Origin: a virus
Length of the DNA stretch: 54,634 bases
Strand: one strand, 5' to 3'
Virus record (IMG/VR): IMGVR_UViG_3300018080_003388
Span: 1 to 54,634 of that record
In this document: positions 4,826-47,933 of the stretch, piece by piece
Numbering within the stretch: position 1 is the stretch's first letter
Layout: each line of letters starts with the position of its first letter
Position numbers and translations under genes: made by a program
Notes under the pieces: model-generated
Database searches by the model: none
The model's input: only the letters and a program-made list of their open reading frames with translations
What the model was told of the DNA's origin: nothing

Positions 4826-4857
4826 AAGGTTATATCTGTAACAGATATAACCTTTTT
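4826..4857 (+). terminator. Rho-independent terminator after co-chaperonin gene
   Basis: A perfect 12-bp stem (AGGTTATATCTG pairing with CAGATATAACCT), a 3-base loop and a T tract. It separates the co-chaperonin unit from the exonuclease gene. Confidence 0.85.
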
Positions 4858-12281: not shown

Positions 12282-12289
12282 TATAAATA
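12282..12289 (+). promoter_or_regulatory. T4-type late promoter upstream of dnaJ
   Basis: A perfect TATAAATA, 26 bases upstream of the dnaJ ATG at 12316, in a non-coding gap after a hairpin. Confidence 0.65.
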
Positions 12290-13208: not shown

Positions 13209-15425
13209 ATGGTAGAACCTAGTGACGTTCTAAAACTAGTTTTTGAAAAAGCAGTTGATGATGCTAAAAAACTAAAACACGAGTATATTACTATCGAACA
13301 CATCTTGTTTGCTATGTTGTGCGAAGAAGATTTTTATGAAAAAATAAAAAGTTACGGAGCAGACCCTTCTTATTTAAAGTCAAACATTGAACATTATCTG
13401 CAACATAATCTAGCTGAGATAAAAATCAGTAAAGACTCAGATTACAAGCCCAAGAAAACTTATGCTGTTGAGCGCGTGTTGAATCGTGCATTCACACAGG
13501 TTTTATTTAGCGGGCGACCGTATATAGAACTAGAAGATATGCTTATCAGTATTCTTGCAGAAAAGAAGTCTATGAGTGTTTACTATCTAGGACAACTAGG
13601 TATCACTAAAAAGACTTTTTCAGAATATGTCAACAGTGACTTTGAAGAAGATGAAGATGATATTCCTGCAGATGCTATGAAACGAGTTCTGTCCCAGTTC
13701 ACTACAAACCTGAATGCTCAAGTATCTAGCGGGCGAGTAGATAAAATGATAGGTCGAGAAGACGAACTAGAATCTATATCACTATCACTGGGAAGAAGAT
13801 CAAAGAATAATGTTCTTATGGTAGGTGATCCCGGAGTAGGAAAAACTGCTATTGCAGAAGGACTGGCTTGGAATATTGTGAATAAACAAGTCCCTAAATT
13901 TTTGCAAGATTATACTGTTTATAGCTTGGATATAGGATCTATGATAGCAGGTTCTAAGTACAGGGGAGACTTTGAAGAACGATTTAAAGCAGTTATAGCT
14001 TCACTCAAAAGCAAAGGTAAAACAATATTGTTTATTGATGAAGCTCATATGATGCTAGGAGCAGGATCAGGCAATAGTAATTCTGCTAATGATATGGCAA
14101 ACATGATTAAGCCTGCTCTTTCTAGAGGTAACATAAAAGTTATAGCTTGTACCACATGGGAAGAGTATAGACGATTCTTTGAAAAAGATCGTGCTTTGAT
14201 GAGGCGATTCCAAAGAGTGACTGTGGATGAGCCTTCAATCGAAGTAGCCAAAGATATTCTATTAGGTATAAAAAAGTACTATGAAGAATATCACTCTACG
14301 TCGATTTTGGATAGTGCAGTCGAGGCAGCAGTTGATCTTAGCCACAAGTATCAAACTGATAAAAAACTTCCTGATAAAGCCATAGACCTGATTGATATAT
14401 CGTGTTCTAGATTTAACTTGATGCCCGATGATGTCGAGCGCGTTGTTTCTGATGCAGATATTCAAAGAGAGATAGCTAATATCACCAAGATACCTCTAGA
14501 ACAAATAACTGAAAAAGAGTCTTCTAGTTTGATAAACCTAGAAGAATCTTTGAAAACAGCGATATATGGCCAAGATCATGCCATTGATGACATTGTGGAT
14601 AGAATCTTTATTGCTCATGCAGGCCTCAAAAGCGGAAATAAACCTATTGGTTCATTTGTATTCATGGGTCCTACTGGAACTGGAAAAACAGAATCTGCCA
14701 AGCAACTAGCAAAAGCACTAGGAGTAAAGCTGGTAAGATTTGATATGAGTGAATTTCAGGAGAAACATTCCGTTTCTAAATTAATAGGATCTCCTCCTGG
14801 TTATGTTGGTTATGAAGACAATGATGGACTTTTGATATCAAAGTTGCAAGAAAATCCTTCTTGTGTTCTTTTATTAGACGAAATTGAAAAAGCTCATCCG
14901 GATATAAGTCAGATCTTGTTACAGATCATGGACAATGGATTCATAACTTCATCAAAAGGCAAGACTGTTGATGCTAGGAATTGCATTTTAGTTCTAACAA
15001 CGAACTTGGGAGCATATGATGCAGAAAAAAATGCAATTGGTTTTAGAGAAAATATAGAAAAAGACTATGAAGACACGGAACTAAAAAGATTTTTTGCACC
15101 AGAGTTTAGAAACCGTCTTGATGCGATAGTGACTTTCAAAAAATTATCCAAAGAATCTATGATTCAAATAGTCCATAAGTTCATAAATGAATTGAAGGAT
15201 ATGCTTGTAAGCAAGAATGTATGGATCACGGTAACAGATAAAGCTGTTGATTATTTGGTAAGCAAAGGCTTCGACAGCAAAATGGGAGCAAGACCTCTCC
15301 AACGTATTATAGACAACGAGATAAAAACTGCGCTTTCTAGGAAAATTCTTTTTGACAGCTCAAAAAATGGTGCCAATCTAGTAATTGATGTTTCAGATGA
15401 AAAAATAACTATTGCTGAGGAATAA
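13209..15425 (+). CDS. clpA: ClpA-type AAA+ unfoldase
   Basis: 738 residues, close to E. coli ClpA (758). An N-terminal Clp repeat domain (about 1-140) is followed by AAA+ domain 1 with Walker A GDPGVGKT (206-213) and FIDEAH, and AAA+ domain 2 with Walker A GPTGTGKT (487-494) and LLLDEIEKAHPD. There is no inserted M domain, so it is ClpA-like and not ClpB-like. The loop NAIGFREN places IGF at 610-612, matching the (I/L)G(F/L) ClpP-docking tripeptide of ClpA and ClpX. No phage ClpP is visible, so it probably drives host ClpP. It has its own strong promoter. Confidence 0.9.
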   Translation: MVEPSDVLKLVFEKAVDDAKKLKHEYITIEHILFAMLCEEDFYEKIKSYGADPSYLKSNIEHYLQHNLAEIKISKDSDYKPKKTYAVERVLNRAFTQVLFSGRPYIELEDMLISILAEKKSMSVYYLGQLGITKKTFSEYVNSDFEEDEDDIPADAMKRVLSQFTTNLNAQVSSGRVDKMIGREDELESISLSLGRRSKNNVLMVGDPGVGKTAIAEGLAWNIVNKQVPKFLQDYTVYSLDIGSMIAGSKYRGDFEERFKAVIASLKSKGKTILFIDEAHMMLGAGSGNSNSANDMANMIKPALSRGNIKVIACTTWEEYRRFFEKDRALMRRFQRVTVDEPSIEVAKDILLGIKKYYEEYHSTSILDSAVEAAVDLSHKYQTDKKLPDKAIDLIDISCSRFNLMPDDVERVVSDADIQREIANITKIPLEQITEKESSSLINLEESLKTAIYGQDHAIDDIVDRIFIAHAGLKSGNKPIGSFVFMGPTGTGKTESAKQLAKALGVKLVRFDMSEFQEKHSVSKLIGSPPGYVGYEDNDGLLISKLQENPSCVLLLDEIEKAHPDISQILLQIMDNGFITSSKGKTVDARNCILVLTTNLGAYDAEKNAIGFRENIEKDYEDTELKRFFAPEFRNRLDAIVTFKKLSKESMIQIVHKFINELKDMLVSKNVWITVTDKAVDYLVSKGFDSKMGARPLQRIIDNEIKTALSRKILFDSSKNGANLVIDVSDEKITIAEE

Positions 15426-15428
15426 AAT

Positions 15429-16013
15429 ATGATACACAGAGATTCTGATAGGATGTATTATGGAAAGTATTTTTTTAAACTTCGGGTGGAAGGTCTTAAA
15501 AATTTTACCTGTTTTGCAATAAAAGAAATAAACAAAGAAAAGATGTCCTATATTGATCCTGAATTAAGGGAGATTCGTAATATTTTAGACAGTATAAAAG
15601 ACAAAAGAATAGCGTGTTCATATAGTTCACTATCCATTTACGCCAATGACCTCATTACTTTGCGTAAGATAGGAGACTTCATTTCATCGAATGATAATGT
15701 TTCTAGGGTATTTATGTATAGTGCTGTGAAATCCGACGGTTCTCACTTGGAAAAAAATACGATTGTATTGAAAAACAAGATACCGTTTAAGTATCGAGTT
15801 ACACTGGGAAATGCTAAAAATATAAAAAGCTTTTATACATTTGCAGTAAATAATCCCTCATTGGTAAAAGTTTCTAGCACTGTACTTGATAAGATAAAAA
15901 ACAATCATAATGTGGAAGGAAGATACATTTATGTAAAAGATGACAAGTCATTGATGTTATCAAAGATGTCTTTGAATAACATACGACGGGTTGATAGGCT
16001 GGTATTTAAGTAG
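15429..16013 (+). CDS. Unknown phage protein downstream of clpA
   Basis: 194 residues, basic, mixed alpha/beta. It begins 4 bases after the clpA stop with GAGGA upstream. MYYGKYFFKLRVEGLKNF and SLSIYANDLITLRKIGDFI resemble two strand-helix units, but I do not recognise the family. Probably cotranscribed with clpA. No catalytic motif is visible. Confidence 0.55.
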   Translation: MIHRDSDRMYYGKYFFKLRVEGLKNFTCFAIKEINKEKMSYIDPELREIRNILDSIKDKRIACSYSSLSIYANDLITLRKIGDFISSNDNVSRVFMYSAVKSDGSHLEKNTIVLKNKIPFKYRVTLGNAKNIKSFYTFAVNNPSLVKVSSTVLDKIKNNHNVEGRYIYVKDDKSLMLSKMSLNNIRRVDRLVFK

Positions 16014-16036
16014 TATCTGTCTTTAATTTAAATTTA

Positions 16037-16075
16037 TTCACTGTTTGCATAAATAATTTTATGTCAAACAGTGAA
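16037..16075 (+). promoter_or_regulatory. Inverted repeat enclosing a late promoter and start codon
   Basis: TTCACTGTTTG (16037-16047) and CAAACAGTGAA (16065-16075) form an 11-bp perfect stem. The 17-base loop contains the late promoter CATAAATA (16048-16055) and the ATG at 16061. A transcript begun at this promoter would lack the left arm; read-through RNA from clpA would contain both arms. Confidence 0.75.
16048..16055 (+). promoter_or_regulatory. Late promoter five bases before the ATG
   Basis: CATAAATA, then 5 bases, then ATG at 16061. In T4 late promoters transcription begins about six bases after this element, so the mRNA should begin at or next to the start codon. Confidence 0.6.
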
Positions 16076-16399
16076 ATACTTTTAGAGTCATCATATCATC
16101 CTGACGATAGTTCTGTTGAGATACTAGTCAGTGACCCTGCAGAAGGTGACGGTTACTACGGGCGTAGTGACGGTTTACACACAGTACAATATTCTTACGA
16201 TAATTTTATCGGCACTATACGAATACAAGCCACTATAATGCTAGAGCCTCTTGAACAAGATTGGTTCGATGTGGTTGTTGATGAAATACTAGATCAGTCC
16301 GAAACAAAAATCCATAATTTTGTAGGAAATTATGTATGGGTTCGTGCATACGTTGAATTTGAAAAAGGATATTTGCGAGCAATAAGATTAAAGAGCTAG
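16061..16399 (+). CDS. Putative virion structural protein, leaderless late gene
   Basis: 112 residues, beta-rich. It contains YYGRSDGLHTVQYSYDNFIGTIRIQA, a dispersed EQDWFDVVVDE segment and NFVGNYVWVRAYVEFEKGYL. I associate this arrangement with small virion proteins of marine T4-like phages. There is no ribosome site, but a late-type element sits 5 bases upstream, so it is likely translated from a leaderless late mRNA. The inverted repeat around the start suggests a block on early translation. Confidence 0.7.
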   Translation: MSNSEILLESSYHPDDSSVEILVSDPAEGDGYYGRSDGLHTVQYSYDNFIGTIRIQATIMLEPLEQDWFDVVVDEILDQSETKIHNFVGNYVWVRAYVEFEKGYLRAIRLKS

Positions 16400-33693: not shown

Positions 33694-33727
33694 AATATAA
33701 TGTATTTTTTGATAAATACATTATATT
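33694..33727 (+). promoter_or_regulatory. AT-rich 14-bp hairpin overlapping a GATAAATA element
   Basis: AATATAATGTATTT pairs perfectly with AAATACATTATATT across a 6-base loop. GATAAATA (33711-33718), a late-promoter-like element, straddles loop and right arm. It may end upstream transcripts or control the gene at 33741. Confidence 0.5.
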
Positions 33728-33740
33728 GGCGAGAAAATTT

Positions 33741-34028
33741 ATGAGTAGACCTAAACCTTTAGTATTAATAGAACATTTAGATAAGAGAACTTACAAACTA
33801 GATCAAGTGCTAGAAGCTGAAGCTATATGGGCAGTCTTTTATAAAGATCGTCCTTTTAACTTAAAGACTAGCAATTCAATAACTAATTATCCTGGTCCTA
33901 AGTATAAAAAAGTAAGTTTTTCTAATCAAGGGTATGCTATAAATCTAGCTAAAAGATTGAATAAAGTATTCAATACATCAGACTTTTCAGTGGTCAAGAT
34001 GACAAAAGGTGAAAAGATATATCCTTGA
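33741..34028 (+). CDS. Conserved marine T4-like phage protein
   Basis: 95 residues from ATG 33741. PKPLVLIEHLDKRTYKLDQVLEAEAIWAVFYKDRPFNLK, then YPGPKYKKVSFSNQGYAINLAKRLNKVF, a strongly patterned small protein seen in marine T4-like phages. The preceding hairpin excludes a longer start at 33726. It could be virion-linked given the late-like element. Function unknown. Confidence 0.6.
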   Translation: MSRPKPLVLIEHLDKRTYKLDQVLEAEAIWAVFYKDRPFNLKTSNSITNYPGPKYKKVSFSNQGYAINLAKRLNKVFNTSDFSVVKMTKGEKIYP

Positions 34029-38246: not shown

Positions 38247-38280
38247 AAAATATACGCATTCGTGCGTATATTTTATTTTT
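38247..38280. terminator. Bidirectional terminator with TTCG loop
   Basis: AAAATATACGCA and TGCGTATATTTT form a 12-bp perfect stem with a TTCG tetraloop; T-rich tracts on both strands allow it to end the rightward operon and the leftward adhesin gene. Confidence 0.88.
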
Positions 38281-45355: not shown

Positions 45356-46053
45356 TGAATTACGTTGTTTGCATAAAGCAAGGATCAAAGTATGATTCTA
45401 GATATGTGAATATACTTTATAATATGGTTACTAGAAATCTAAGACTAGATCATGAGTTTATTTGTTTTACAGATGATACTCATGATCTAGAGTCTGGTAT
45501 ACGGGATAAAAAATTAGATAAAAATATAAATTTACCGGGGTGGTGGAATAAAATATTACTTTTTAACAAAGATCTTGATATACGAGGTACTGTATTGTTT
45601 CTGGACTTAGATATTGTCATACATTCTAGTATAGATATCTTGTTTACATATCAAGCAGGTAAATTTGCAATAATACGAGATTTTACCAGATATGCTAGGA
45701 AAAAAACAACAAAGTTTAACTCTAGTGTGTTTAGACTAGAAACAGCACAAATGTCATATGTGTATGATAGGTTCATATCTGATCAATCACGCATAGGAAA
45801 AATGTTCAAAGGTGATCAAGAATGGATTAATCACTGTGTTGACGGTGATTATTGTTTTTGGCCGGATGAATGGATACAGAGTTATAAATGGGAGTTCAAA
45901 AAACAATTTTCCTGCGCATCAGGAAGATACCTTATTGATTGCAGTAATTCATCTAGTGATGATATAATATCTAGATCTAGTATACTAGTATTTCACGGTG
46001 ATCCCAAGCCTCATGAATGTGGTGATCATTTTATACAACAACACTGGCGATAA
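45355..46053 (+). CDS. GT-A type glycosyltransferase-like protein
   Basis: 232 residues; ATG at 45355 uses the last base of the queD stop (TGATG). YVVCIKQGSKYDSRYVNILYNMV, HEFICFTDD, LPGWWNKILLF, VLFLDLDIVI (DxD metal site), NSSVFRLE, GDQEWI and WPDEWIQSYKW, then VFHGDPKPHE, match a bacterial glycosyltransferase family with a DLD nucleotide-sugar site. The acceptor is unknown; DNA, lipopolysaccharide or virion protein are all possible. It follows queD directly. Confidence 0.75.
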   Translation: MNYVVCIKQGSKYDSRYVNILYNMVTRNLRLDHEFICFTDDTHDLESGIRDKKLDKNINLPGWWNKILLFNKDLDIRGTVLFLDLDIVIHSSIDILFTYQAGKFAIIRDFTRYARKKTTKFNSSVFRLETAQMSYVYDRFISDQSRIGKMFKGDQEWINHCVDGDYCFWPDEWIQSYKWEFKKQFSCASGRYLIDCSNSSSDDIISRSSILVFHGDPKPHECGDHFIQQHWR

Positions 46054-47586: not shown

Positions 47587-47594
47587 TATTTATG
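47587..47594 (-). promoter_or_regulatory. Late promoter five bases before the ATG (minus strand)
   Basis: CATAAATA, 5 bases, ATG at 47581 on the minus strand. A 13-bp dyad TGATAA-A-TTATCA (47593-47605) overlaps its upstream end. Confidence 0.6.
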
Positions 47595-47620: not shown

Positions 47621-47628
47621 TATAAATA
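47621..47628 (+). promoter_or_regulatory. Late promoter five bases before the ATG
   Basis: TATAAATA, 5 bases, ATG at 47634. It is divergent from the CATAAATA promoter at 47587-47594. Confidence 0.65.
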
Positions 47629-47633
47629 TCATT

Positions 47634-47933
47634 ATGTCTTATTTAAACAAAATGTACGGTAGAACTCAGACGATAGGTACTAGTGCAGATAGTACAAAAA
47701 GTCCTTCTAGAGTAACAGGGGGGTTAAAAGCTCAAGGTGTTGATCATTTTGATATTATAGCCGAAGACGGGTCAGTACAAAAGATTTCGTCATATAAGTA
47801 TGTACAGAGTTTAGAATCTCAGATAAAAAAATACCGAGAAACCTTGAATCTACTAGAACGCAAAGTTTCTCGGGTAGAGAATTCGGTAAATCAGATGGGT
47901 ATAATTATCAAGAATTCTGTTCGAGAATCTTGA
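47634..47933 (+). CDS. Putative virion protein, leaderless late gene
   Basis: 99 residues from ATG 47634. SYLNKMYGRTQTIGTSADSTKSPSRVTGG and VDHFDIIAEDGSVQKISSYKYV are followed by a coiled coil (SLESQIKKYRETLNLLERKVSRVENSVNQM). The N-terminal signature resembles virion proteins of marine T4-like phages. No ribosome site; late promoter 5 bases upstream. A longer in-frame start at 47502 would cross both late promoters and is rejected. It overlaps the end of the next, convergent gene by 26 bases. Confidence 0.65.
   Translation: MSYLNKMYGRTQTIGTSADSTKSPSRVTGGLKAQGVDHFDIIAEDGSVQKISSYKYVQSLESQIKKYRETLNLLERKVSRVENSVNQMGIIIKNSVRES

Follow-up and report, generated by a model that had tools for sequence, protein, structure and literature searches.

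The start of the gene at 16061 probably combines a conserved, leaderless late promoter with a hairpin that was acquired in a single lineage and acts on translation, although this combined explanation is put forward with only modest confidence because the likely role of the hairpin is included in it. Under this explanation, the box CATAAATA at 16048 would be a gp55-type (T4-like) late promoter that directs transcription from the A of the ATG, and the late mRNA of the probable virion gene would be leaderless, an arrangement that appears to be ancestral and conserved. The inverted repeat around the promoter would be a later addition, in which a left arm complementary to the existing gene start arose in the spacer preceding the promoter. 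RNA read through from clpA would then fold into a 17-bp hairpin burying the AUG, whereas late RNA would start inside the hairpin and escape it. Most likely, the hairpin would stop upstream RNA from being translated at the 16061 AUG, by silencing or insulation, and would represent an add-on for a gene already devoid of a Shine-Dalgarno sequence. The sequence, the fold, the conservation of the leaderless-type promoter and the absence of the left arm elsewhere were determined directly, and we infer where and when transcription starts, that RNA is read through and how translation is affected.

The window, i.e., the whole stretch of DNA analyzed, is a 54.6-kb viral fragment (IMG/VR virus record IMGVR_UViG_3300018080_003388, positions 1 to 54,634). 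Its DNA polymerase is nearest to that of Sinorhizobium phage Phosso (50%), followed by Agrobacterium phage Atu_ph07 (47%), indicating that the source is a jumbo phage of the T4 superfamily. Searches for close relatives of the window by DNA or by several neighboring proteins returned none or too few, and relatives were obtained by means of a clpA query and protein alignment. Within the window, a clpA-like ATPase gene (13209..15425, + strand), the supposed source of read-through RNA, is followed consecutively by an ORF of 194 aa (15429..16013, +) and the 16061 gene (16061..16399, +). The clpA gene is syntenic in relatives, and its order with the 16061 gene is kept in more than 70 IMG/VR contigs, the clpA identity being 63-67%. 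The stop codon of the 194-aa ORF lies 47 nt before the ATG at 16061, compared to 4 nt in 61 of the 98 relatives. The product of the 16061 gene, 112 aa long, had been described as virion-type from the letters of the DNA, which agrees with a moderate match (E 9e-9) to the virion structural protein family PHROG 14467, further matches to phage structural families and a confident beta-sandwich in the predicted structure (pLDDT 89; the Phosso row was excluded from the input alignment), for which structural matches were weak only. Rfam and tRNA scans of the window yielded no matches.

The late promoter box CATAAATA occupies positions 16048..16055 (+) and is separated from the ATG by the five nucleotides ATTTT. 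Its frequency in the window is at chance level (six found versus 6.4 expected), so its significance rests on position and conservation. Among 98 distinct related start regions of 16061 homologues with an ATAAATA box, the distance from ATAAATA to the ATG was 5 nt in 92, 4 nt in five and 7 nt in one. Eight further homologous loci have no ATAAATA at that position; these comprise Phosso, two loci lacking a box altogether, some in which it reads CTAAATA or GTAAATA, and one cut by a contig end. In 61 of the 98 regions, the box and the upstream stop codon share nucleotides; elsewhere, the box keeps the same distance. As the T4 late box occupies positions -13 to -6 (PMC2988020), the 5-nt spacing would, by analogy with T4, place +1 on the A of the ATG. 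A gp55-type late sigma factor is encoded by the relatives G001-G003, Phosso and HTVC008M; none of this family was found within the window, which is itself a fragment. A leaderless late promoter at 16061 is likely on these grounds, and the late element and leaderless late mRNA proposed by the sequence-only reading were well supported by spacing, T4 numbering and the sigma factors of relatives. In most of the relatives L004-L083, the late box lies over the upstream stop codon and the next ATG follows after 4 nt, an arrangement in which read-through RNA could be translated by coupling.

The spacing survey, covering 1.1 Mb from the window, Phosso and three relatives, one of them 358 kb long, revealed a bimodal distribution of box-to-ATG distances, with 31 sites at 4-5 nt and 121 sites at 15-45 nt, and intermediate spacings were scarce (none at 6 nt and five at 9-14 nt). 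Shine-Dalgarno sequences were present at 0 of 36 sites with 2-8 nt spacing versus 96 of the 121 sites at 15-45 nt. In eight relatives and Phosso, 32 sites of the 4-5 nt type were counted versus four in a reversed-pattern control, Phosso contributing none. T4, RaK2 and the cyanophages tested showed no surplus of boxes 4-5 nt before an ATG. For the pelagiphage HTVC008M (NC_020484), ten late boxes at this distance were detected versus two in the control, which suggests that leaderless late mRNAs occur there as well. These patterns support the existence of a second, leaderless class of late genes in this phage group. A marine branch of the T4 superfamily appears to possess late genes whose start codon is set by the promoter itself, which would alter the annotation of these genes and the view of their expression. 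The wider proposal, namely that the 16061 AUG is usable only at the 5' end of late RNA and locked in a 17-bp stem in longer RNA, and that marine phages of the T4 superfamily run part of their late program leaderless as set by promoter-to-ATG spacing, is tentative when taken as a whole.

A box-to-ATG spacing of exactly 5 nt occurs three times in the window, at 16048, at 47621 and, on the minus strand, at 47594. The second leaderless candidate is CATAAATA at 47587..47594 (-), preceding the ATG of the ORF 47581-47093, and the third is TATAAATA at 47621..47628 (+), preceding the ATG at 47634; these two are divergent and arranged back to back. Pairing of the gene start with upstream sequence, calculated for all leaderless promoters, was not clearly above shuffled or mismatched controls, so hairpins are not a general part of the leaderless class. 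Start-codon hairpins as a general feature of late promoters were likewise rejected (18 of 150 had p<=0.05, no clear excess over mismatched controls), and the same test for the leadered promoters of Phosso gave a p value of 0.07. As a separate observation, a leaderless-type box at 322310 (-) of contig G001, the contig behind L023, lies within a 12-bp inverted repeat (TTTCTTCATAAA/TTTATGAAGAAA) covering the ATG of a 681-codon ORF, which represents an independent case like 16061.

The perfect 11-bp inverted repeat enclosing the late element and the ATG was confirmed and proved to be longer than originally described. The region 16037-16075 reads TTCACTGTTTG-CATAAATAATTTTATGT-CAAACAGTGAA, the left arm TTCACTGTTTG (16037..16047, +; 11 bp) being the perfect complement of the right arm CAAACAGTGAA (16065..16075, +). 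The late box in between corresponds to -13 to -6 if +1 is 16061. Since CATAAA (16048-16053) pairs with TTTATG (16058..16063, +), which contains the start codon and the putative +1, the repeat exceeds 11 bp and the RNA stem comprises 17 pairs, with one bulged U (16064) and a UAAU loop. For the RNA 16014-16120 (107 nt), a minimum free energy of -26 kcal/mol was calculated (z -4.2), and none of 200 shuffles was as good, whereas RNA truncated to start at the ATG showed nothing unusual in its fold (z +0.5). The earlier proposal that read-through RNA buries the start codon and late RNA does not therefore holds at the level of folding, where the AUG is buried in the former and free in the latter. Five perfect inverted repeats with arms ≥11 and spacers ≤25 were found in the window, whereas 20 dinucleotide-shuffled versions contained ~0.45 on average; when slightly longer spacers were allowed, the number rose to six, two of which contain a late box versus 0.12 expected. 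When the 34-nt upstream spacer was shuffled, the gene start was matched perfectly over 11 or more positions in ~3.5e-4 of 200,000 trials. The inverted repeat at 16037-16075 is more than chance, though not astronomically so.

The history of the hairpin differs from that of the promoter. According to the sequence-only reading, the left arm should be conserved in relatives, and a lack of such conservation had been named as evidence against the proposed mechanism; the arm was present in 0 of the 98 distinct relatives and is unique to this phage among them. When the first 20 nt of the gene were compared with the 50 nt preceding them, perfect stems reached at most 8 bp in the 98 relatives versus 11 bp here. 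The right arm encodes the residues after the start (SNSE..) and is conserved as coding sequence in several relatives; in L031, L013 and L046 it is identical while the left arm is absent, indicating that the right arm is old and the left arm new. The left arm is situated in the 47-nt spacer, which is longer than in nearly all relatives. A conserved switch in the 16061 family is rejected, as the left arm is missing in relatives; the hairpin appears to be lineage-specific and possibly functional. The rarity of an 11-bp match in shuffled spacers favours an origin of the left arm by an event other than chance, but a template-switch mutation would also produce it. The hairpin could be a mutational by-product, i.e., a recent, functionless quasi-palindrome that arose when template switching copied the gene start inverted into the spacer. 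An ancestral right arm with a new complement, and a spacer restricted to one lineage and absent from the nearest relatives, are in line with such an event; however, the arms are perfect, the pairing continues through the promoter, another inverted repeat of the window also lies over a late box, and the hairpins at T4 late promoters are functional, and we regard this origin as rather unlikely.

A full switch under selection, of the kind described for T4 genes e, soc and 49, in which the hairpin silences early read-through RNA and the leaderless late RNA is translated, is possible but doubtful. The geometry and the fold of the region agree with it, T4 provides precedents (PMC3014915), and the same architecture occurs with covariation at another late gene of the group (the 33741 family, see below); furthermore, the upstream stop codon is 47 nt away with the hairpin in between, versus 4 nt in 61 of the 98 relatives. 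On the other hand, none of the relatives has the left arm, early read-through is only supposed, the dnaJ-clpA operon itself carrying a late box at 12282, and there is no Shine-Dalgarno sequence before the ATG at 16061 to hide. The hairpin sequesters the AUG only; read-through RNA should initiate poorly at 16061 even without it, and the hairpin has less to hide than that of T4 gene e. An early/late switch at 16061 is plausible, and activity of the hairpin in this phage as either a switch or an insulator is a tentative suggestion, somewhat short of an even chance.

The stem begins approximately 23 nt past the stop codon of the upstream ORF, and the + strand from clpA to 16061 yielded no other terminator. 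It could therefore protect or terminate the 3' end of the clpA-15429 RNA, the overlap with the next promoter being incidental; this appears improbable, as no T run follows the stem and a terminator scan does not call it. A palindromic DNA operator, bound by a dimeric regulator of the late promoter, would explain why the inverted repeat is centered near the promoter box, but no relative shares it and a search of the window with the region yielded no second copy except its own reverse complement, making this reading very improbable. The likelihoods assigned to these readings partly overlap, since the full switch is the stronger form of the hairpin role in the preferred explanation of a conserved leaderless promoter with a lineage-specific hairpin.

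The strongest evidence found here for a T4-type early/late translation switch comes from a hairpin at another late gene, 33741..34028 (+; 95 aa, MSRPKP family). In the window, an inverted repeat with 14-bp arms (33694..33727, +) precedes this gene and includes the late box GATAAATA (33711-33718, +). In 80 IMG/VR relatives (L150-L229), the box GATAAATA typically runs into the left arm ATATGCGTAT, the ATG lies within the right arm ATACGCATATG and the Shine-Dalgarno sequence is in the loop. The late start would fall inside the left arm, so late RNA of this family would lose the hairpin, and the folds agree. The hairpin is kept in ~62 of the 80 loci. In an alignment of 39 sequences, 85% of the cells are paired, and the covariation score was reached by none of 500 shuffles and also exceeded slid controls. 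One or two pairs account for most of the covariation. One pair is G-C in 22, A-U in nine and G-U in five of the 39 sequences; on the gene tree, G-C/A-T requires five changes, at least three of them forced by well-supported branches (A-T group). RNAalifold alone reported no consensus structure for this alignment, and pairing was counted on a named structure instead, so the negative outcome calls for some caution. The compensating changes fit an RNA hairpin or a DNA palindrome alike, and the varying loop length favours RNA. The window's own hairpin differs in being shifted upstream, leaving the Shine-Dalgarno sequence outside, and the hairpins before the 33741 homologue in PA5oct, Phosso, Atu_ph07 and SCTP-2 (7-9 bp) could be due to chance. 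The predicted structure of the 33741 protein was of too poor quality to be used. On the basis of these comparisons, a conserved T4-type early/late switch in the 33741 family is likely, and it is here, rather than as a conserved feature of the 16061 family, that the proposed T4 logic is supported. According to the literature searched, the covarying hairpin provides novel support, from sequence comparison, for an extension of the T4 early/late translation switch to jumbo phages.

Further inverted repeats were observed in the phage group. In L003 (5700-6001, Phosso genes 199 and 200), they are located at the start of both genes. Upstream of Phosso gene 200, a 15-bp stem lies over the Shine-Dalgarno sequence with GTAAATA in the loop, and at Phosso gene 199, ATACTCTGT/ACAGAGTAT flank the Shine-Dalgarno sequence and overlap ATAAATA. 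Other long perfect inverted repeats in the window are at 4826-4854, 38247-38274 and 45445-45490, that at 38247-38274 being terminator-like in appearance and situated between convergent ORFs.

In T4, hairpins silence read-through RNA of genes e, soc, 49 and I-TevI/I-TevII and are omitted from late RNA (PMC3014915). The arrangement at 16061 resembles these genes in that the arms enclose or contain the late box, the 5' arm would be lost from RNA begun at the late start and the start codon is part of the stem. Folding of T4 gene 49 and I-TevII placed the left arm over the late box region, and the geometry of the 33741 family is that of these two genes (T4 folds; PMC3014915). However, the T4 hairpins hide a Shine-Dalgarno sequence and their late mRNAs are leadered, whereas the 16061 gene has no such sequence and its mRNA would start at the AUG; moreover, the 16061 hairpin is not conserved among relatives of that gene. 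With the T4-type gp55 late promoters (TATAAATA; NATAAATA in cyanophages), the group shares the same box and, in relatives, a gp55-family sigma factor, and the box lies 4-5 nt from the ATG in 97 of 98 distinct regions with a box, in line with a position of about -13 to -6 in T4 numbering. Unlike the gp55 promoters of T4, RaK2 and the cyanophages tested, those of this group show an excess at 4-5 nt, as HTVC008M seems to do. No description of leaderless mRNA arising from a gp55-type late promoter with constant spacing to the ATG was found in the open literature searched. The 16061 mRNA would have in common with leaderless phage mRNAs a 5'-terminal AUG, as judged from the spacing, and the lack of a Shine-Dalgarno sequence, and would differ from them in its link to a gp55-type late promoter at a fixed distance.
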